Source of the DNA: Rhodospirillaceae bacterium
Lineage (GTDB): Bacteria; Pseudomonadota; Alphaproteobacteria; UBA828
Length of the DNA: 64,000 nt
NCBI GenBank assembly: GCA_002728135.1
Contig: PBVE01000005.1
Span: 62,001 to 126,000, forward strand
Direction: 5' to 3'
This document shows, one piece after another, positions 4,764 to 42,686 of the stretch. The notes below the pieces were generated by a model that was not told where the DNA came from, did no database searches, and saw only the letters and a program-made list of their open reading frames with translations. The translations under genes and the position numbers were made by a program. Position 1 is the first letter of the stretch; each line of letters opens with the position of its first letter.

Positions 4764-5741
4764 ATGAAACAATCTTTTCACAGAATTTTTAGCATAATGA
4801 GAAAAAAAAGAACTTTGCTATTTAGTTTGAAATTAGCAATTTCTATTCCTCTGACTTGGTGGGTGTTAAGCCGTGTAAATATTGGTGATAGTGCAGAAAA
4901 AATTGAAAATTTAGATCTAAGCTGGGGTATACCTGCATTGATATGTTTTTTATTTATTATTTTAATCGGTGGATTACGTTGGTATATATTTTATAGAGCG
5001 TTATCAAGGACTGTATCACTAGATTTTTTAATGAAAATAAATTTTTCAGCTACATTCCTAGGACAAGTACTTCCTGCAGGTATTGGTTCTGATGCAGCAA
5101 AGATTTGGTTTCTTAGTAGAAAAGAAAGAAAGTTAAGCGTTTGTATATCTAGCGTCATACTGGATAGATTAATTGGACTTGCGTCCTTGTTAATTTTAAT
5201 CGCAATTTTTATTCCTATATCATTTACTTATATATCTAATGAAGATGCTAAATATGCTATAATAATAGCATTAGTTTGTGGTGGATTAGGTTTTGTTTTT
5301 TTATTGTTTCTAGCGTGTCTCCCAAATCTATTTAAAAATTTAAAAATTATTGCATCAATTGCAAATCATATAAATTTTGCCCGCAAAGAAGGTTTGTCAA
5401 TAAAGCCAGTATTTTTCTCTTTGTTACTTTCCTTTTTTTTACATCTCATGGCCGTTCTTGTAGTAAAGTTTCTTGCCAACAGTATAGGTTTAGAAATTGA
5501 CTTTATTTTATGTCTAGCATTAATCCCCACAGTAATGTTAATTGCTACACTTCCAATATCACTTGCAGGTTGGGGGATAAGAGAAGGAGCGATGGTAACT
5601 GCTTTTAGTTATGTGGATATTATACCTAGCGAAGCACTTGCACTTTCAGTTCTTTTTGGACTCCTTACTATCATAGCAAGTACTCCTGGAGCAATTACGT
5701 GGATACTTCAGACAAAGTTGTTGAAAAGAAATGCTAACTAA
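4764..5741 (+). CDS. Flippase-like integral membrane protein (LPG synthase TM / UPF0104 family)
   Basis: This 325-residue, strongly hydrophobic protein has about eight membrane segments and the family motifs GQVLPAGIGSDAAKIWFLSR near residue 100 and LPISLAGWGIREGAMVTAFS near 270. The fold is that of the MprF flippase domain and of AglD-like proteins, often encoded beside polyprenyl-glycosyltransferases. It begins a rightward run of genes: a methyltransferase-GT2 fusion follows after 20 bases. The likely role is moving or presenting a lipid-linked glycan intermediate; the substrate is unknown. Confidence 0.75.
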   Translation: MKQSFHRIFSIMRKKRTLLFSLKLAISIPLTWWVLSRVNIGDSAEKIENLDLSWGIPALICFLFIILIGGLRWYIFYRALSRTVSLDFLMKINFSATFLGQVLPAGIGSDAAKIWFLSRKERKLSVCISSVILDRLIGLASLLILIAIFIPISFTYISNEDAKYAIIIALVCGGLGFVFLLFLACLPNLFKNLKIIASIANHINFARKEGLSIKPVFFSLLLSFFLHLMAVLVVKFLANSIGLEIDFILCLALIPTVMLIATLPISLAGWGIREGAMVTAFSYVDIIPSEALALSVLFGLLTIIASTPGAITWILQTKLLKRNAN

Positions 5742-5761
5742 AATTTTAAAAACAGAAAAAA

Positions 5762-7234
5762 ATGAATAGTGATATTGAAAGTTTTGCTGATCGTAAATCA
5801 GCACGAAAAAATGCAATTTGTCGGCATTATGACAATCTTGCAATGAATCGTTCTACATGGATTAAAAAAAATAGTTTTTTTCATAAAGAGGATAGTGTTT
5901 ATCATCAATTTCTCATACCAAAAGGAGCAAAAATCCTTGATCTAGGATGTGGAACTGGGCAACTACTTGCAAGTCTTAATCCCTCTTATGGTGTAGGTAT
6001 AGATATTTCACAACGTATGATTGACGTAGCAAAAAATAACTACAAAGGTGATACACATACAAACCTAAATTTTATTGTGGGTGATGTGGAAGACCCCAAT
6101 GTCATAAGTTCACTTGATAATCATTTCGATGTTATAATTTTATCAGACACTATAGGTCTTTTGAACGATGTACAGAATTTTCTTAGCTCGCTTCACAAAC
6201 TATGTCACCCAGACACTAGAATAATCGTTTCATATTTTTCATGGCTATGGACTCCTGTTCTTCAAATTGCAGAACATTCTGGCCTAAAAATGAAACAAAT
6301 GCCTCTTAATAAATTATCCACAACTGATATCGAAAACATACTAAAACTAAGTGATTTTGACATCATTCGCCGTGATTGGAGACAACTGCTACCAAAGAAA
6401 AGCTTTGGTCTTGGAAGTTTAGTTAATAAATATATAGCCACATTACCATTAATACGAAAACTGTGTGTTCGCAACTTCGTAGTTGCCCGGTCATTAAACA
6501 AAATCAATAAAGATATTTCTTCTGTAAGTATAATTATTCCATGCCGCAATGAAAAAGGTAATATAAAACCGGCCATAAAACGACTACCAAAATTTAGCCC
6601 TAAAATGGAAATAATTTTCGTCGAGGGACATAGCAAAGATGATACACTTGAAGAAATTCAATTAACTATTCAAGAAAACTCTGAACTAAACATTAAATTA
6701 ATTGTTCAAGATGGTGTGGGCAAAGGAGATGCAGTACATAAGGCCTTTTCTGAGGCTTCTAACGAAGTTTTAATGATTCTTGATGCTGACCTTACTGTAC
6801 CTCCTGAAGATTTACCAAAGTTTTATAATGCCATAACTTCAGGAAAAGGCGAATTTATAAATGGTACACGTTTTATATATCCTATGGAAAAAGGTGCAAT
6901 GCGTTGGTTAAACATAGGTGGAAATCTGTTTTTTGCTTGGGTTTTTTCTTGGCTACTGAACCAACGATTTACCGATACGCTATGTGGAACAAAAGTGTTA
7001 ACTAAAGAGCACTATGAAAAAATTGCCAATAATCGCTCTTACTTTGGTAATTTCGATCCATTTGGCGATTTTGATCTTATTTTTGGAGCAACAAAACTGA
7101 ACCTCAAGGTTGTTGAAGTACCAATAAGATACGCTGAAAGAACCTATGGTACAACGCAAATATCACGATTTCGTCATGGTATATTACTTCTAAAAATGGT
7201 CATATTTGCATTCCGAAAACTCAAGGCAATTTGA
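5762..7234 (+). CDS. Fusion of SAM methyltransferase and family 2 glycosyltransferase
   Basis: The protein has 490 residues and two domains. Residues ~55-200 hold a class I methyltransferase with motif I ILDLGCGTGQLL and the acidic VGIDIS strand end. From ~254 a GT-A fold glycosyltransferase starts (VSIIIPCRNEKGN), with DADLT as the metal/nucleotide-binding DxD-like motif near 339. The tail (FTDTLCGTKVL, then FGDFDLIFGA and VPIRYAERTYGTT) matches the DPM1/GtrB-like branch that uses polyprenyl phosphate acceptors. That suggests it makes a polyprenyl-P-sugar donor for the GT-C enzyme downstream, with the methyltransferase acting on the same intermediate (inference). The stop overlaps the next start by one base. 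Confidence 0.8.
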   Translation: MNSDIESFADRKSARKNAICRHYDNLAMNRSTWIKKNSFFHKEDSVYHQFLIPKGAKILDLGCGTGQLLASLNPSYGVGIDISQRMIDVAKNNYKGDTHTNLNFIVGDVEDPNVISSLDNHFDVIILSDTIGLLNDVQNFLSSLHKLCHPDTRIIVSYFSWLWTPVLQIAEHSGLKMKQMPLNKLSTTDIENILKLSDFDIIRRDWRQLLPKKSFGLGSLVNKYIATLPLIRKLCVRNFVVARSLNKINKDISSVSIIIPCRNEKGNIKPAIKRLPKFSPKMEIIFVEGHSKDDTLEEIQLTIQENSELNIKLIVQDGVGKGDAVHKAFSEASNEVLMILDADLTVPPEDLPKFYNAITSGKGEFINGTRFIYPMEKGAMRWLNIGGNLFFAWVFSWLLNQRFTDTLCGTKVLTKEHYEKIANNRSYFGNFDPFGDFDLIFGATKLNLKVVEVPIRYAERTYGTTQISRFRHGILLLKMVIFAFRKLKAI

Positions 7235-7980
7235 TGTTAAGTGATATAAAACACGGTCAGAATTTGTCTAATCGTAATAACATTTGGAAAAAAAAACCTG
7301 TTTTACGTGAACTTTATAAACATTATTATAAGAAAATCATCAATTACACTGTGGCTGGAAAAACACTTGAGATAGGTGGAGGATCAGGAGACCTCAAAAA
7401 TTTTTGTGAAGAAACTATAGTTTCAGATATTCAACTAACTCATGGTTTAGATGTTGTTTCCGATGCACAATTTTTACCATTTGCAAATTCAACATTTGAC
7501 AATGTTATACTTTGTGATGTCCTGCATCATATCGAATCACCTCCTATGTTTTTTGATGAAGCTAAACGAGTTCTAAAATCAGGGGGTAGAATAGTGTTGC
7601 TTGAACCTGTGATAACCCCCATAAGCCATCTTGTTTTGGGACTTACACACCCTGAACCTATATATATGAAACATGATCCTTTTTATAAAGGACCAGTGAA
7701 CCCCAAAAAAAATCCATTTGATGCAAATCAAGCAATACCAACATTAATTTTTTGTCGCAAAAAAGGGCTTAAGCGATTCTCTATTGAAAACCCAGATCTA
7801 AATATTATCAGTTGTAAGTTACTCTCTTTATTTGCTTATCCTTTATCTGGTGGTTTTAGAGAATGGAACTTAATTCCTAAATCTTTCATAAAACCACTAT
7901 TAAGAGTTGAAAGTGTTCTCATGCCAATCCTTGGGCCAATTATGGCTTTTCGTGTACTTATAATTATTGAGAAAAATTAA
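7234..7980 (+). CDS. Class I SAM-dependent methyltransferase
   Basis: The frame is 248 residues from the ATG at 7234, which shares one base with the preceding TGA (TGATG). A TTG at 7231 extends it by one codon and is unlikely. Motif I is TLEIGGGSGDL, the post-I region leads to AQFLPFANSTFDNVILCDVL, and HHI plus GGRIVLLEPV match Methyltransf_11. It belongs to the same tightly packed run as the flippase-like and fusion genes, so a sugar or lipid-carrier intermediate is the probable substrate. The exact target is not visible. Confidence 0.75.
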   Translation: MLSDIKHGQNLSNRNNIWKKKPVLRELYKHYYKKIINYTVAGKTLEIGGGSGDLKNFCEETIVSDIQLTHGLDVVSDAQFLPFANSTFDNVILCDVLHHIESPPMFFDEAKRVLKSGGRIVLLEPVITPISHLVLGLTHPEPIYMKHDPFYKGPVNPKKNPFDANQAIPTLIFCRKKGLKRFSIENPDLNIISCKLLSLFAYPLSGGFREWNLIPKSFIKPLLRVESVLMPILGPIMAFRVLIIIEKN

Positions 7981-8075
7981 AAATTACTGTTATTGCAAAT
8001 GAATTACCACCAAGAGCAAAATATAGGATACCCTGAAAAATTGTTTAGGATACCTAAAAAAAGGTTAAAACTATA

Positions 8076-8918
8076 ATGCTGACTACACAGCAAAAAATTG
8101 CTTTTGTTCGCATAGTTTCAACTCCGGTGCGATTAATTAATACTATTTTTTATAAATCACCTATTCGTGTACGAAGACGCAAAATAAATTGGTGTCTAGA
8201 CCTCAACGAAGTAATTGATCTTGTAATTTATCTGATAGGTAATTTTGAACCGAAAACGATTCGCCAATATCAGCAAACGCTAAAATCAGGTGCTATAGTT
8301 TTTGATATTGGAGCAAACATTGGTTCCCATACCTTACCTTTAGCTAAAATAGTACAACCAAATGGGATGGTTTTCGCTTTTGAACCTACATTATATGCAG
8401 TTACTAAACTAAGAAATAACGTAGAAATAAATCCTACACTTTCTAAGTGTATTCAAGTTGAACAAATCCTTCTATCTGACCAAAAAAGCAGCTTAGAAGT
8501 TCATGAGATTGAATCTAGTTGGCCAATTAAAACTTCAAAAATAACTCATAATTTACATGGTGGGGAGGCTAAGTCTATAGCTGGATCTGAAGTAATAACA
8601 TTAGATACTTTTGTTATAAAAAACAAAGTTAATGTTTTAGATTTAATAAAAATCGATGTTGATGGAAATGAAATAAATATTTTAAAAGGAGGAATTAAAA
8701 CTATAAAAAAACTAAAACCTTTAATTATGTTTGAGTTGGCACCTTATGCTCTAAGAGAAAAGGGTCATAGCGGTGAAGAACTATTACAAATACTTAATGA
8801 ATTAGGATATAAAATCTATAAGAACCCAACTGGCTTACAAATTAATAAATCCAATAAAGAATTGTGTTTATCTGTACCGGAAGGAGCCAGCATAAATCTG
8901 TGGGGAGTGCCAGGGTGA
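8076..8918 (+). CDS. FkbM family methyltransferase
   Basis: The protein has 280 residues. The core FDIGANIGSHTLPLA is the FkbM SAM motif, followed by FAFEPT, then LIKIDVDGNEINILKGG (the family's IKIDVEGxExxVLxG box) and IMFELAPYAL. FkbM proteins methylate hydroxyls of polyketides, glycans and other surface molecules. An AAAAGG-like site precedes the ATG. The stop overlaps the GTG start of the next gene (GTGA), so translation is probably coupled. Confidence 0.8.
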   Translation: MLTTQQKIAFVRIVSTPVRLINTIFYKSPIRVRRRKINWCLDLNEVIDLVIYLIGNFEPKTIRQYQQTLKSGAIVFDIGANIGSHTLPLAKIVQPNGMVFAFEPTLYAVTKLRNNVEINPTLSKCIQVEQILLSDQKSSLEVHEIESSWPIKTSKITHNLHGGEAKSIAGSEVITLDTFVIKNKVNVLDLIKIDVDGNEINILKGGIKTIKKLKPLIMFELAPYALREKGHSGEELLQILNELGYKIYKNPTGLQINKSNKELCLSVPEGASINLWGVPG

Positions 8919-36624: not shown

Positions 36625-37422
36625 ATGCGTGTTGCTTCTTGGAATATAAACTCTGTTCGAATGCGTATTGATCTAGTTAAAAAGTTTATAGATCAATATA
36701 ATCCAGATATTCTTTGTCTACAGGAAATAAAAGTCGAAAGTAATTTATTTCCTTTATCTACTTTCAAAAAAATGGGCTTTGAATATAACGAAATTTTTGG
36801 TCAGAAAGGCTATCACGGTGTTTCGACACATTCTAAATTTCCTATTATTTACTCCAACAAGAATTATTGGTGCAATATAGAAGAAAGCCGTCATCTTCAT
36901 ATACAATTATCTAATGGCATAGATATACATAATTTTTATGTTCCTGCAGGTGGAGATAAACCAGATCCACAAAAAAATAAAAAATTTGCACAAAAACTTG
37001 AATTTCTTAGAGAAATGGAAAGATGGTCAAAAACAATAGACATCTCGCAAGCTACAATTCTTCTTGGAGATCTTAATGTTGCACCCCTGCAAACCGACGT
37101 CTGGTCACACAAGCAACTTCTTAAGGTAGTATCCCACACACCAATTGAGGTAGACCTTTTTTCTAAAGTTAAGAATGTATGTTGGGTAGATGCAATTCGT
37201 GAGATAATACCCGAAGATGAAAAATTATTTTCTTGGTGGAGTTACAGATCACCAAATTGGGAAGCAGCCAATAAAGGTCGAAGATTAGATCATTTGTGGA
37301 TAACTCAGCCTCTTGTTAAATCTCTTGTAGATGCAATTATTATAAGATCTATTCGTGGATGGGAAAGACCTTCAGATCATGTCCCAATTATAGCTGATTT
37401 TAATTGGCCTAGGTCTTTATAG
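36625..37422 (+). CDS. xth: Exodeoxyribonuclease III / AP endonuclease
   Basis: The 265-residue EEP-fold nuclease works in base-excision repair. Motifs in order: ASWNINSVRMR, DILCLQEIKVE (metal Glu), NFYVPAGGDKPD, ILLGDLNVAP (Asp-Asn pair), SWWSYRSPNWEAANKGRRLD and SDHVPIIADF (catalytic Asp-His). Full length for XthA. The 3' end overlaps the converging cNMP-binding gene by 14 bases. Confidence 0.94.
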   Translation: MRVASWNINSVRMRIDLVKKFIDQYNPDILCLQEIKVESNLFPLSTFKKMGFEYNEIFGQKGYHGVSTHSKFPIIYSNKNYWCNIEESRHLHIQLSNGIDIHNFYVPAGGDKPDPQKNKKFAQKLEFLREMERWSKTIDISQATILLGDLNVAPLQTDVWSHKQLLKVVSHTPIEVDLFSKVKNVCWVDAIREIIPEDEKLFSWWSYRSPNWEAANKGRRLDHLWITQPLVKSLVDAIIIRSIRGWERPSDHVPIIADFNWPRSL

Positions 37423-37861
37423 TTAATTCTTGCAGCCTTCGGTTTGTTTTTTCAAGTCTGAATGCAAGTTCTCTCATAACTTCTAACGCCATTTCAGGAA
37501 ATTGAGTCACAAGTTGAAAAAAAATTTCCTTCGTAATTTCTAAGGTTAGAAGTTCTGTTTTTGCTCTCACAGTAGCCGTACGAGGCACATCACACAGTAT
37601 AGCTATTTCACCGACCAAATCATTTTTTTTTACTTTTGCTATCTCTATTTGGGTATCAGAGTTTGTATAAATTAACACCGATGCTTCTCCCTCAATAATG
37701 ATAAATGCTGAATCTCCATAATCACCCTGAACAAAAAGATTTTCGTTCGCTTTGAATTGAAGGCGCTGACTTGTAAAAGCAATCAGTTTTAATTTCCTAG
37801 AATCAATATTTCGGAATAAAGGTATATTCCTGAGTAAATCTACATCTTGTTGAAGATCCAT
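37409..37861 (-). CDS. Cyclic nucleotide-binding domain protein
   Basis: This 150-residue protein is a single cNMP-binding beta-roll: LLRNIPLFRNIDSRKLKLIA, NLFVQGDYGDSAFIIIEGEA, and the phosphate-binding cassette VGEIAILCDVPRTATVRA, which keeps the Glu and Arg that contact cyclic nucleotide. No DNA-binding HTH follows, so it is not a CRP-type regulator. It lies 27 bases downstream of the unusual ABC exporter gene on the same strand and probably acts as its regulatory subunit (inference from operon). Confidence 0.82.
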   Translation of the reverse strand: MDLQQDVDLLRNIPLFRNIDSRKLKLIAFTSQRLQFKANENLFVQGDYGDSAFIIIEGEASVLIYTNSDTQIEIAKVKKNDLVGEIAILCDVPRTATVRAKTELLTLEITKEIFFQLVTQFPEMALEVMRELAFRLEKTNRRLQELTIKT

Positions 37862-37888: not shown

Positions 37889-40573
37889 TTAATGTTGTTC
37901 CAGCAACTCATTAAAAAAACTTCCATCTCTTTTAAGTTGATCATACGTACCCTGTTCAATGATATTTCCGTTTTTCATAACTATAATTATGTCAAAGTAT
38001 TTTGCTAACTCTGGCCGGTGGAGTGACCAGATGACCCCACGTTTTGAAAAAACTTTCATAATATTTTTAAGAATTCTTTTTTGAGAAGCACCATCTAATG
38101 AAGCTGTTGCCTCTGAAAGAATTAGTATATCAGGATTTTTTAAACAAGTACGTGCTATCGCTAATTTTTGACGTTGTGATCCAGATAGTTTTGTTCCACC
38201 TAAACCTGCGTGATGAGCTAAACCAACTTCTAAAATATTAGTATATAAACCGCAATCGTTAACAACCTCCTCTATTAGCTTACCAACCTTATCTTTTGCA
38301 TGTGCCTGACCATAAGCAACCCTTCCAAAAAGTATGTTATCTTGAACTGAAGCAGCTGGATTATATTTATTTGTTTCAAACCTGTTAATACGTTTAGCCA
38401 TGTATTGCGGTAAATCTTGATAAAATAATTCCCTAGCAATTAGAATTTTTGCTTCCATGTCTTTACTGATTAGATTCAACCTGTGTTTAGCAGTTACCAA
38501 TTTGAAAGGAAGGGCCATTAGTAACTTTCTATCATTCTTATCGAGATTACCTAAATTTGTCTTGTTTATTCTGTTCATTAATCCCTGATATATAGGGAGG
38601 TTTTCTGCAGAAATAAAACTAAATCTCTGATAAAGCTCATGCTCGGAAGGTAAGTCAGAAAATAATTCAATCATAGTTGCTGCTAATTGATAACCACATT
38701 CTGTAAAGTCTGATACTAAATCAGCCTTTTTTAAAACCTCTAATATATAAATATTATCGATATAATTATCACCTTCAAAAACTTCATCACATGAAGTGCC
38801 AAATATCAAATTTTCGAAAAGAGAAGCATTAGTATTATATTTTTGTGAGTCGAATAGCTCTACCAGTCCTTGAAATTCCTTTTTGTGGAGTTTTTTTTCA
38901 AGCACCTTGCGTGCTTCTAACATTTTTTCAATTGATTCTTTGTCTTTGTCAAGATTTAAACTTCCACGTAAACCATACATATACACTTCACTTGTCATAT
39001 CAGCTATATCTATAGATTTTAGTATTGGATCTATAACTTCAGTGGAATTATTTATTCCCAATTGATCATAATTAACCCATTCTGCATTGATATCTAATGT
39101 TGAATTACCTGCTTTTTCTGCCTCTTCAATCCATTCCTGTTGTTGATTTATATTTAAATCGCCAGAGCTTTTATTTCCCTTTACTGGTCTATATTTGAGA
39201 CCATAAAGTAGATTTTCTTTTAATGTAGATGAAAATATATACGCATTTTGACTTACAAAACCAATCCGGCGACCTGTAACTGCTTGTGGCATGGTATGTA
39301 AGTCATATTTACCTGCTAGAATTTTACCCTGAGATGGATCAATGAGCCTTGCCAGCATTAACATCAGCTCTTCTTTTCCACTCCCAGAAGTGCCAACAAC
39401 TGCTACTTTTTTGTTCAAATGTATTTTTGCTGTTAAGCCACTAACGATTGAAACCTCATCATCATCCCTAAGTGTGAGATTTGATATTAAAAGGTCACCA
39501 CTAATATTAGGAAAAGAGTCCGGTTCACTGAGCTGTTTTTTCTCATCCATTAAATTTTTGGGTTCAAATTGGCTTATTACCTGTTCATATTTTATTCTAA
39601 CATCTTCTTTTATCTGATAAAAATTCAAAAGCTCCATCCAAGGAGGTGATAGATCTTTATATGCAGCAAGAACTGCTACAAGAGAGCCAAGTGTTAAATC
39701 ACCTATAATTACTAAATAGCCCCCAATTGTGAAAAAGAAAAATGGTGTAAGCTGAGCTAAAAAAAGATTTAGAAATTTAATAAAATATTTTTTATTATAT
39801 ATTTTGTAACGAATTCCATAAATATTACCTAAGCGCCTAGAAAAATCTGCAAGCTCTAATTGGGCTGTACCATTTGAATGAACTTCCTGAACTCCTGCTA
39901 CAGTCTCTTCTATACGTTCTGACAAATTCCTTACTTCATACACCCTTTCCTTAGCATGAAGATTTACCCTTTGCTGAAGCTTAGGGATTAAATATGCTTG
40001 TATTGGATAAAGGGCTATTGCAGCAACACCCATAAGGGGATCTTGAGAAAAGATATAAATAAGGGCGGTTAAAAGCAATCCGCCCTGAAAGGCTGGCAAG
40101 GCAAATGCATCACCTATGAAGTTACCTATAGGTTCAACCTCTGCGGTAATCATCGAAATTAACTCAGCAGAAGAAACTTTACGAAAATGGGGAAGAGGAA
40201 ACCTTAATATACGTGAATAAAGTATAAAGCGTAAACGCCTCAACATTCTCTCACCTATACGGCCCTTATAAAAGTTTATATATATTCTAAAAGAACCGTT
40301 AATACAGACTAAAAAGAGAAATATAATACAAAGAGTAAACAATAATGTTATTTGATCTAAGTTTCCAAATTCAATCCCTAAAATGCTGAGTGGTCTGGGA
40401 AAGTCATCAGCTATTATTGTTGGGTCATCAGATTCTAATGCTGTGTTAACAATTAGTTTTGGTATATCGAGAGATATATAATAAAAAGGTAGAGAAACAG
40501 CTGTAATAAACAAAACAAAAAGCTGTTGTGGTCTAGTATGACGAAGGATGAACTTATAAATGTTTTTGTCCAT
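37889..40573 (-). CDS. Unusual ABC exporter: TMD plus degenerate ATPase with triplicated Q-loop-like modules
   Basis: The protein has 894 residues, about 300 more than a normal half-exporter. Residues 1-~330 are a type IV transmembrane domain with six helices. The ATPase starts near 355. Walker A is GTSGSGKE (394-401), Glu replacing Ser/Thr; Gln442 is the Q-loop; the signature is LSGSQ (796-800); Walker B reads ILILSE (816-821), Ser replacing Asp; His852 is the switch His. Between Q-loop and signature about 350 residues contain three copies of the post-Q-loop motif: SSTLKENLLYGL (448), NASLFENLIFGT (582), AASVQDNILFGR (739). It may need a partner ATPase or work atypically. Its neighbours (cNMP-binding protein, glycosyltransferase, deacetylase) suggest a surface-polymer role. 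Confidence 0.8.
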   Translation of the reverse strand: MDKNIYKFILRHTRPQQLFVLFITAVSLPFYYISLDIPKLIVNTALESDDPTIIADDFPRPLSILGIEFGNLDQITLLFTLCIIFLFLVCINGSFRIYINFYKGRIGERMLRRLRFILYSRILRFPLPHFRKVSSAELISMITAEVEPIGNFIGDAFALPAFQGGLLLTALIYIFSQDPLMGVAAIALYPIQAYLIPKLQQRVNLHAKERVYEVRNLSERIEETVAGVQEVHSNGTAQLELADFSRRLGNIYGIRYKIYNKKYFIKFLNLFLAQLTPFFFFTIGGYLVIIGDLTLGSLVAVLAAYKDLSPPWMELLNFYQIKEDVRIKYEQVISQFEPKNLMDEKKQLSEPDSFPNISGDLLISNLTLRDDDEVSIVSGLTAKIHLNKKVAVVGTSGSGKEELMLMLARLIDPSQGKILAGKYDLHTMPQAVTGRRIGFVSQNAYIFSSTLKENLLYGLKYRPVKGNKSSGDLNINQQQEWIEEAEKAGNSTLDINAEWVNYDQLGINNSTEVIDPILKSIDIADMTSEVYMYGLRGSLNLDKDKESIEKMLEARKVLEKKLHKKEFQGLVELFDSQKYNTNASLFENLIFGTSCDEVFEGDNYIDNIYILEVLKKADLVSDFTECGYQLAATMIELFSDLPSEHELYQRFSFISAENLPIYQGLMNRINKTNLGNLDKNDRKLLMALPFKLVTAKHRLNLISKDMEAKILIARELFYQDLPQYMAKRINRFETNKYNPAASVQDNILFGRVAYGQAHAKDKVGKLIEEVVNDCGLYTNILEVGLAHHAGLGGTKLSGSQRQKLAIARTCLKNPDILILSEATASLDGASQKRILKNIMKVFSKRGVIWSLHRPELAKYFDIIIVMKNGNIIEQGTYDQLKRDGSFFNELLEQH

Positions 40574-40742: not shown

Positions 40743-41894
40743 ATGCGTATAGCTTTTTATCCTCTAAAAGAATTCCCTAATCATCCAAATACATTAACCG
40801 AGCAGGTGATTATGGAATCTCTGATTAAAACGCTGCAATTAGATAACAATATATTTTTAATTCCTAATGAATTTAATGGTTCTGATAATAAAAGATACGA
40901 AAAAAAGGATAAGTCTCCGTCTATAGACGGAGAGCGAGAAGCAAACAATAAAATTAGAAAATTAAAAAGACTTCCAGTAAATCAAAGACCTCAAATTTGG
41001 ATTACATACAATCTTAATGTCTTGTCTCCGGATTCGCTAGGTCCTAAAATATCTTCTGCCCTTAATATTCCATATATAATAATTGGAGCTAAGTATTCTA
41101 AAAAACATTTAAACAGCTCAAATACACAAAATCTCACCGTAATAGCACAACAAATCTCACATGCCGATGTATTACTGTCATTTTCATATGAAGAAACGAG
41201 CACCCTTATACCTATTAAAAGTTCTAAAACAAAAATTATTGATCTACCGCCATTCGTAGATTTCTCCATTTATGAAAAATTACGGGAAAAGCGTGTCGAA
41301 ATAAGACAAAGAATTTCAAAAAAATATAACCTTTGTATATCAAGACCATGGCTCGTAACTGTTGCAATGTTAAACCCTGGAAATAATTTAGCCTCATATC
41401 GATTATTAGGACGTTCTTTGTGGCTTATTAATAAGCCTAATTTTAACCTTTTAATTGTAGGAGAAGGCCCAGCTCAAAAACTTGTTAAAGAATCTTTTAA
41501 AGATCTTGAGGTAGGGATAGTTGCATGGATCGGAAAGCAAGGAAAAAGTAATATACTCGAAATATTGACTGCATGTGATATTTATGTTTGGCCCGGATAT
41601 AATGAATATTGCCCTATACAATTTCTCATGTCTCAAGCAGCAGGGTTACCCGTTATTACTGGTGGATTTCCAGGAGCAACAAAAATTATTCAAAACAGTA
41701 AGACTGGAAATATTATTATACCTTGGGACGATGCTGATTTTGCAGAATCTATTGTGAGAATATGTGATGATAAATCATCTAGAGAAAAAATGTCATCATC
41801 TGCAATCAAAATGGTAAGAGAAAATCATAGCCTATCTATTGCAAAAAAAATATTAAACCAAGCTATGAGCGATGCTTTTAAAAACAAAAATTAG
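40743..41894 (+). CDS. Glycosyltransferase, GT4/GT1-like
   Basis: The 383-residue GT-B fold protein begins MRIAFYPLKEFPNHPN. Its C-domain has PWLVTVAMLNPGNNLASYRL, LLIVGEGPAQKLV, and ACDIYVWPGYNEYCPIQFLM followed by AAGLPVIT and GNIIIPWDDADFAESI, which is the nucleotide-sugar-binding region. The usual EX7E motif is present only loosely (one Glu in GYNEYCPI). It is divergent from the ABC gene and 12 bases before a deacetylase-like gene, so it probably works on the same polymer. Confidence 0.8.
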   Translation: MRIAFYPLKEFPNHPNTLTEQVIMESLIKTLQLDNNIFLIPNEFNGSDNKRYEKKDKSPSIDGEREANNKIRKLKRLPVNQRPQIWITYNLNVLSPDSLGPKISSALNIPYIIIGAKYSKKHLNSSNTQNLTVIAQQISHADVLLSFSYEETSTLIPIKSSKTKIIDLPPFVDFSIYEKLREKRVEIRQRISKKYNLCISRPWLVTVAMLNPGNNLASYRLLGRSLWLINKPNFNLLIVGEGPAQKLVKESFKDLEVGIVAWIGKQGKSNILEILTACDIYVWPGYNEYCPIQFLMSQAAGLPVITGGFPGATKIIQNSKTGNIIIPWDDADFAESIVRICDDKSSREKMSSSAIKMVRENHSLSIAKKILNQAMSDAFKNKN

Positions 41895-41906: not shown

Positions 41907-42686
41907 ATGATAGAATATAGTTGGGATGACCTTATATACGAAATAAATTCTAATATTGATATAGGGCTACCTGTTGAGTTCTGGTGGAGAAACGATGGTG
42001 TTTATTCAAAAAGTAATGATTTACGGCAACTTAGCTCATTAGCATCAAACGAAGGCGTTCCCGTAGCAATTTCTGTCATACCAGAAAAAATGAGAGATGA
42101 TATAGTTTTCCACATCAAGAATTTTGATAATCATTTTGTGATACAACATGGCTATGCTCATAAAAATCATGCTCATATATCTGAACAAAAAAATGAGCTA
42201 AGCCTTAATCGTCCAATAAAAGATAGTTTAAAAGACCTAAGTATTGGTTTTAGAAATTTGTCCTCAGAGTTTGAATGTAAATTTTTACCTATTTTAGTTC
42301 CACCTTGGAATCGTCTTTCAACCCAGATTATTCCACACTTGAATAGCCTAGGACTAATGGGGTTAAGTTGTTTAGGTGGAAGAAATTTTCCTAATCCTGT
42401 GTCAAATATTTTCCAAACCAATACTCATATTGATTTAATTGATTGGAAGGGAACAAATCGTTTTATAGGCACAGGTGCAGCTATTGCTTTTGCATGCAAA
42501 CATCTTTCTGATAAACGCAACGGTAAAGCAGACCCATTTGAGCCCACTGGTCTACTTACTCACCATATGAGGATGGATTTTTCTTCGTGGGCGTTTATTG
42601 GAACATTTATTAGAAAAACAAAAACAATATCTGATGTCCAATGGCCTTCTATACAAGATATTTTTAAGGATAGATCCATTGTCTGA
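41907..42686 (+). CDS. Polysaccharide deacetylase-like (NodB-fold) protein
   Basis: The 259-residue protein starts with VEFWWRNDGVYSKSNDL, where RNDG takes the place of the catalytic/metal Asp-Asp motif (xDD). HFVIQHGYAHKNHA carries the His-x3-His metal site, and VPPWNRLSTQIIPHLNSLGL is the RPP-like motif 3. It is a shortened COG3233-type deacetylase, probably cytosolic since no signal peptide is seen. It is cotranscribed with the GT4 gene and converges with an MBL hydrolase gene. Confidence 0.75.
   Translation: MIEYSWDDLIYEINSNIDIGLPVEFWWRNDGVYSKSNDLRQLSSLASNEGVPVAISVIPEKMRDDIVFHIKNFDNHFVIQHGYAHKNHAHISEQKNELSLNRPIKDSLKDLSIGFRNLSSEFECKFLPILVPPWNRLSTQIIPHLNSLGLMGLSCLGGRNFPNPVSNIFQTNTHIDLIDWKGTNRFIGTGAAIAFACKHLSDKRNGKADPFEPTGLLTHHMRMDFSSWAFIGTFIRKTKTISDVQWPSIQDIFKDRSIV

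Follow-up and report, generated by a model that had tools for sequence, protein, structure and literature searches.

An alphaproteobacterial family of type IV ABC exporter-like proteins with a tripled ATPase segment, altered Mg2+-ligand positions and a cNMP-binding partner

The exporter gene and its neighbours

The window analysed here, a 64,000-nucleotide stretch of a Rhodospirillaceae genome, carries on its minus strand a gene for an ABC exporter-like protein, followed at once by a gene for a small cNMP-binding protein and preceded by a divergent glycosyltransferase gene. These genes, and the parts of the exporter that lie outside its unusual central region, are as follows.

37409-37861, minus strand: stand-alone cNMP-binding protein, 150 amino acids (PF00027, E 1e-18), 27 bp downstream of the ABC gene
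37889-40573, minus strand: ABC exporter-like gene, 894 amino acids
40743-41894, plus strand: GT4-type glycosyltransferase (PF00534, E 3.4e-21), divergent from the ABC gene
39584-40573, minus strand: transmembrane domain, residues 1-330, the family's best conserved part
39371-39394, minus strand: Walker A GTSGSGKE (394-401), Glu replacing Ser/Thr
38165-38188, minus strand: signature region LSGSQRQK (796-803), with RQK strongly conserved
38111-38128, minus strand: Walker B ILILSE (816-821), Ser replacing Asp

The frame, its coordinates and its motifs are those given by a sequence-only reading that preceded this analysis: GTSGSGKE at 394-401, Q442, LSGSQ at 796-800, ILILSE at 816-821 and H852. 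Pfam places ABC_membrane (PF00664) at 71-302, ahead of an ABC_tran domain (PF00005) that is split in two, the order of domains expected of the type IV exporter fold. The best NCBIfam match is TIGR02203, MsbA (E 1e-61), at 209.2 bits against an equivalog cut-off of 602, and the protein is not assigned as MsbA. The distance from Q442 to the signature at 796 is 354 residues, where exporters have about 100 or fewer; this spacing is conserved, and it agrees with the roughly 350 residues first noticed.

Homologous segments ahead of a single signature

Between the Q-loop and the signature, the protein is built from the following segments.

38963-39262, minus strand: copy 1 (438-537), Q-loop strand, KENLLYG and helix; its Q-loop matches ordinary exporters and it matches copies 2 and 3
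38882-38941, minus strand: linker helix between copies 1 and 2 (545-564)
38684-38881, minus strand: copy 2 (565-630), FDSQKYN..FENLIFG..helix; matches copy 3
38474-38683, minus strand: unique stretch (631-700) with ELFxDLP, FSFISA, LPFK and KHRL; no Pfam match
38408-38467, minus strand: linker helix between copies 2 and 3 (703-722), from profile comparison of the linker regions
38213-38407, minus strand: copy 3 (723-787), running into the signature

For segment homology, 105 full-length relatives were aligned with MAFFT and sub-profiles of the alignment were compared with hhalign. Segment 2 (565-629) aligned to segment 3 (723-786) with a probability of 98.5 (E ~3e-15), segment 1 (442-536) to segment 2 at E ~1e-7, and segment 1 (437-537) to segment 3 (729-787) at E ~3e-6. 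In a control, 110-residue windows were scanned across the whole protein, self windows being left out of the ranking; among 31-33 non-overlapping windows of the family alignment, the best matches of each segment were the other two (E 3e-6 to 2e-16), which rules out a coincidental likeness of motifs. The three segments are homologous, removing one of the two grounds on which the sequence-only reading had said that it could fail. Its three motif copies also stand, as ENLLYG (453-458), ENLIFG (587-592) and DNILFG (745-750), the positions it had given (448, 582 and 739) marking the start of the motif context rather than the motif itself.

When compared with ordinary exporters, segment 1 matched at the Q-loop (E 2.9e-9) and segment 2 only weakly (E 0.001), whereas the match of segment 3 began at the Q-loop strand and ran past the signature as far as Walker B (E 4.5e-24). 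The repeat unit thus has three elements, namely the Q-loop strand, the ENxxxG turn and the helical subdomain's first helix. Regions 530-592 and 688-752, the linkers, match each other at E 4e-18, and both contain a helix with the consensus 'ILxAR' followed by 'FD..YN..ENLLFG', and by profile comparison the repeated unit also includes the linker helix between copies. Within the family alignment, no repeat of the signature helix was detectable by the same means. The signature occurs once and its region has no match in the linkers, so that a repeat of the whole Q-loop-to-signature module is not supported; of the "triplicated Q-loop-to-signature module" originally described, the three homologous segments survive and the full module does not.

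Segments 2 and 3 are present in all 105 relatives and segment 1 is filled in 104, while the motif Asn is found in all three copies in 103. Residues 631-700 are particular to copy 2 and well conserved, and no Pfam model matched the insert better than E 0.03. In three close relatives (L013, 4428-7301; L014; L015), the copy 1 loop carries a long low-complexity insertion of PET/PEAP-type repeats and lysine-rich runs.

Distribution, selection and motor residues

The profile search that had been proposed as a measure of how widespread the tripling is was carried out with the insert as the only query. Matches were found in 131 of 385 sampled alphaproteobacterial genomes, about a third, including 118 of 315 good-quality genomes and 87 of 277 genera of the class. 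In a phylum sample of 398 genomes, whose class make-up is not shown, all 31 matches were alphaproteobacterial, and a tally of 254 plasmid records named ten groups, again all alphaproteobacterial, Rhizobium, Sinorhizobium, Azospirillum, Methylobacterium and Ruegeria among them. One MAG record labelled Gammaproteobacteria (L011) has the family gene, and its label may be wrong. The family is class-wide in Alphaproteobacteria and no local oddity. Its alignment is automatic and includes one very long-branch outlier (L217), a doubtful member that may not belong.

An assembly artefact or a decaying pseudogene has virtually no probability left. The same layout recurs in all 105 relatives, from independent genomes, which refutes the artefact and also disposes of the assembly-induced duplication that was the second ground for failure. 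Estimates of dN/dS (Nei-Gojobori) are well below 1, at ~0.05-0.2 in most of ten pairs and lowest in the membrane domain, with values of 0.3-0.66 in the ATPase core or the insert in three of the ten. The membrane domain has a mean column entropy of 1.49 bits, and other parts of the protein have 1.8-2.2. Taken together, dN/dS and column entropy indicate that the family protein is maintained by purifying selection and that its membrane part is the most constrained.

Two members have unusual frames. In Sinorhizobium meliloti 1021 (L221, pSymB 836000-852000; 5685-8436), the family gene appears as two overlapping frames, whereas in strain R14 it is a single frame of 2712 bases, the split being a frameshift or a sequencing error. 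At L170 (3485-7504), the family frame is 1340 amino acids long and no cNMP domain was found in it; the extra N-terminal part resembles an upstream GC-rich open frame, not a domain.

Six catalytic residues were scored across the family, namely the Walker A Lys and Ser/Thr, the Q-loop Gln, the Walker B Asp, the catalytic Glu and the switch His, and none of the 105 members has all six. The substitutions that the sequence-only reading had seen in Walker A (Glu for Ser/Thr) and Walker B (Ser for Asp) proved to be family-wide losses: Ser/Thr at 401 is kept in only 6 of 105, with an acidic residue in 85, and Asp820 in only 17. Lys400 is present in 60 (Lys or Arg in 89), the Q-loop Gln in 23, the catalytic Glu in 58 and the switch His in 34. 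The catalytic Glu and switch His were said to remain, which is true of the window protein and not of the family as a whole. In the window protein Lys, Gln, Glu and His are intact, and what it lacks is exactly the two Mg2+ ligands that the Walker motifs of an exporter should hold, having Glu at 401 and Ser at 820. Outside the six, the D-loop Asp is found in 88 of 105 and the signature-helix Arg801 in 100, and acidic residues (Asp/Glu at 370-371) lie in the A-loop region.

Given the loss of both Mg2+ ligands, ordinary ATP hydrolysis by the family is unlikely. Some nucleotide binding or turnover may persist in the window member, which retains four of the six (Walker A Lys, Q-loop Gln, catalytic Glu, switch His), and the conserved signature Arg-Gln-Lys and D-loop Asp suggest continued dimer contact between the ATPase domains. 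It is conceivable, if on the whole unlikely, that the family is still an ATP-driven exporter in which the Walker A acid takes the place of the Walker B Asp in Mg2+ coordination and the extra modules tune turnover. Such a swap of ligands would fit the conservation of the P-loop Gly399 (99 of 105) and Lys/Arg400 beside the acid at 401, most acid-bearing members having Ser or Asn at 820, and five of the six members with Ser/Thr401 keep Asp820. The link between 401 and 820 is suggestive but based on very few lineages, and the frequent loss of the Q-loop Gln, catalytic Glu and switch His, together with the acidic A-loop region, argues against it.

Heterodimeric exporters in which one site is degenerate are a familiar class; TM287/288, TAP and BmrCD retain both the Walker A Ser/Thr and the Walker B Asp, and the partner of the degenerate half is a canonical one. 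The family resembles them in having lost some catalytic residues and differs in mostly lacking precisely those two. Each of 57 comparison exporters, a set chosen by Walker A and signature in which most resemble degenerate-site halves, keeps four to six of the six catalytic residues, and 41 of the 57 retain the Mg2+ ligands while having lost Glu/His, mostly the reverse of what is found in the family. In addition, a neighbour of half-transporter length with canonical Walker A and signature was found in only 2 of 87 loci (L214 and L220). These results make it quite improbable that the family supplies one, degenerate, side of an exporter heterodimer whose other side is a canonical half-transporter.

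The cNMP-binding partner, the glycosyltransferases and a putative gated exporter

The protein encoded downstream of the ABC gene scores 67.5 bits against PF00027, whose gathering score is 27.5, and its phosphate-binding stretch, GEIAILCDVPRTATV, is conserved. Its position just downstream, already pointed out from the window, proved relevant: 64 of 87 loci have a cNMP-binding gene downstream in the same orientation. In this set of 87, one locus is counted twice (L010 = L146), loci L078-L086 and L126-L140 are short enough that neighbour genes fall outside them, and gene calls in GC-rich loci come from a simple ORF rule. The cNMP-binding gene is the next gene in 63 loci, with a median gap of 25 bp. 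In 11 sequences the cNMP domain is instead fused to the C-terminus of the family protein (model E 1e-20 to 1e-50), as Pfam confirms for five of them, and the fused members, which all fall to one side of a branch in a membrane-domain tree, need a single change (support 90). Fifteen of the 87 loci have none of the four syntenic partner groups, and 8 of these 15 carry the fused domain. Fusion and adjacency provide strong evidence that the ABC protein and the cNMP protein work together, the latter being a conserved partner of the family and, in one clade, a domain of it.

The partners from the window and from Rhizobium johnstonii (150-155 amino acids) show PF00027 only, and no DNA-binding domain was found in them. 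The S. meliloti R14 partner (L225, 8372-8836) is annotated as a Crp/Fnr transcription regulator; it is of similar length, with little room for a DNA-binding domain, and the annotation is not borne out by the window and R. johnstonii proteins, in which no C-terminal HTH is found.

Nearby genes include GT4-type glycosyltransferases in 60 of 87 loci, GT28-like ones in 54 and a Methyltransf_17 enzyme in 39, the glycosyltransferases lying mostly upstream and divergent, on the strand opposite to the family gene. The glycosyltransferase at 40743-41894 is the one member of this usual upstream cluster retained in the window, and one GT28-like member that was tested had no match in the host genome. On R. 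johnstonii pRL11, the cNMP protein, the ABC protein and three glycosyltransferases are encoded on one strand, followed by the genes of another ABC transporter.

A degenerate motor, an expanded cytoplasmic lobe, a cNMP protein and glycosyltransferase synteny might also be expected of a membrane-anchored signalling scaffold, one that lets nothing across the membrane and uses its cNMP partner and triplicated lobe to recruit glycosyltransferases in the cytoplasm or to regulate them. We regard this as unlikely, given that no other part is as well conserved as the transmembrane domain or has so low a dN/dS, as expected if a substrate is handled.

The account we prefer, at slightly less than an even chance, is that of a cyclic-nucleotide- or alarmone-gated exporter or flippase of a surface saccharide or glycolipid that hydrolyses ATP poorly or not at all. 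The tripling, the family-wide motif loss, the purifying selection, the cNMP partnership and the glycosyltransferase synteny are evident from the sequences themselves, while gating, substrate, the absence of hydrolysis and the energy source are what we infer from them. In this model, a family of type IV (MsbA/ABCB-like) exporters would have turned its ATPase domain into a regulatory or structural module, with two extra copies of the Q-loop-to-first-helix unit and a unique conserved stretch placed ahead of the signature. The ligand of the cNMP-binding protein, whether encoded downstream or in cis, would be a cyclic nucleotide or a nucleotide of another kind, for instance ppGpp. Acting through the enlarged helical lobe, this protein would determine which conformation the half-transporter dimer adopts, and with it whether a path is open or closed to the glycolipid or saccharide that the neighbouring glycosyltransferases make. 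A stricter version, in which a cyclic-nucleotide-gated family dispenses with ATP hydrolysis altogether and acts through its tripled helical lobe as a ligand-gated flippase or channel, is rather doubtful. In support of a gated exporter, the phosphate-binding stretch of the partner is conserved, one class III nucleotide cyclase is encoded by the host, and a precedent exists in HetC of Nostoc, an ABC exporter that cannot do without its ppGpp-binding N-terminal cNMP domain (PMC10986499).

HetC and the family are alike in tying an ABC exporter to a cyclic-nucleotide-binding domain. In HetC this domain is N-terminal, a C39 peptidase is present and a catalytic ATPase residue is needed (PMC10986499), whereas the family has its cNMP unit downstream or at the C-terminus, lacks a peptidase and carries a degenerate ATPase. 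With MsbA/ABCB-type exporters the family shares the fused TMD-NBD half-transporter, and its PDB profile matches include ABCB4/ABCB1, TM287/288, PCAT1 and MsbA; it differs from them in some 250 extra residues between Q-loop and signature, in its lost Mg2+ ligands and in its cNMP partner. Large insertions in the helical subdomain region also occur in the ABC ATPases SMC/Rad50 and UvrA; these enzymes are soluble, act on DNA and have active sites, and their inserts are unrelated. That no described exporter has such a layout, as initially supposed, agrees with searches of Pfam, NCBIfam, PDB sequences and papers. By fold the family is a type IV ABC exporter; its ATPase layout, residue-loss pattern and cNMP partnership match no family found, and the part of the literature covered holds no matching description, an earlier one being possible.

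Present in about a third of the sampled alphaproteobacterial species, the family is widespread and undescribed, and as a transporter it is probably signal-gated. Very few ABC transporters do anything other than pump by ATP hydrolysis, the usual examples being CFTR and SUR. This would be a conserved ABC family whose motor has been rebuilt by internal triplication, with its Mg2+ ligands gone and its membrane part the most constrained, and which a cyclic-nucleotide sensor would serve as subunit or fused domain. As its members include genes of rhizobia that can be cultured and manipulated genetically, the question of whether a second messenger controls the export of surface glycans is open to direct test. 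Two rhizobial genes, the root-colonisation gene pRL110056 (PMC11103875) and the msbA homologue SMb20813 (PMC10945364), may lie at the family locus.

Several further genes were observed beside members of the family. In the window, a 259-residue protein with no Pfam or NCBIfam match is encoded at 41907-42686, beside the glycosyltransferase, and its cluster occurs near the family gene in two other loci. In Rhizobium and Azospirillum (L222, 13379-16001; L223, 7966-12866), the permeases and substrate-binding protein of another ABC transporter, in L223 with its ATPase too, adjoin the family gene or its glycosyltransferases, and a functional link is possible.
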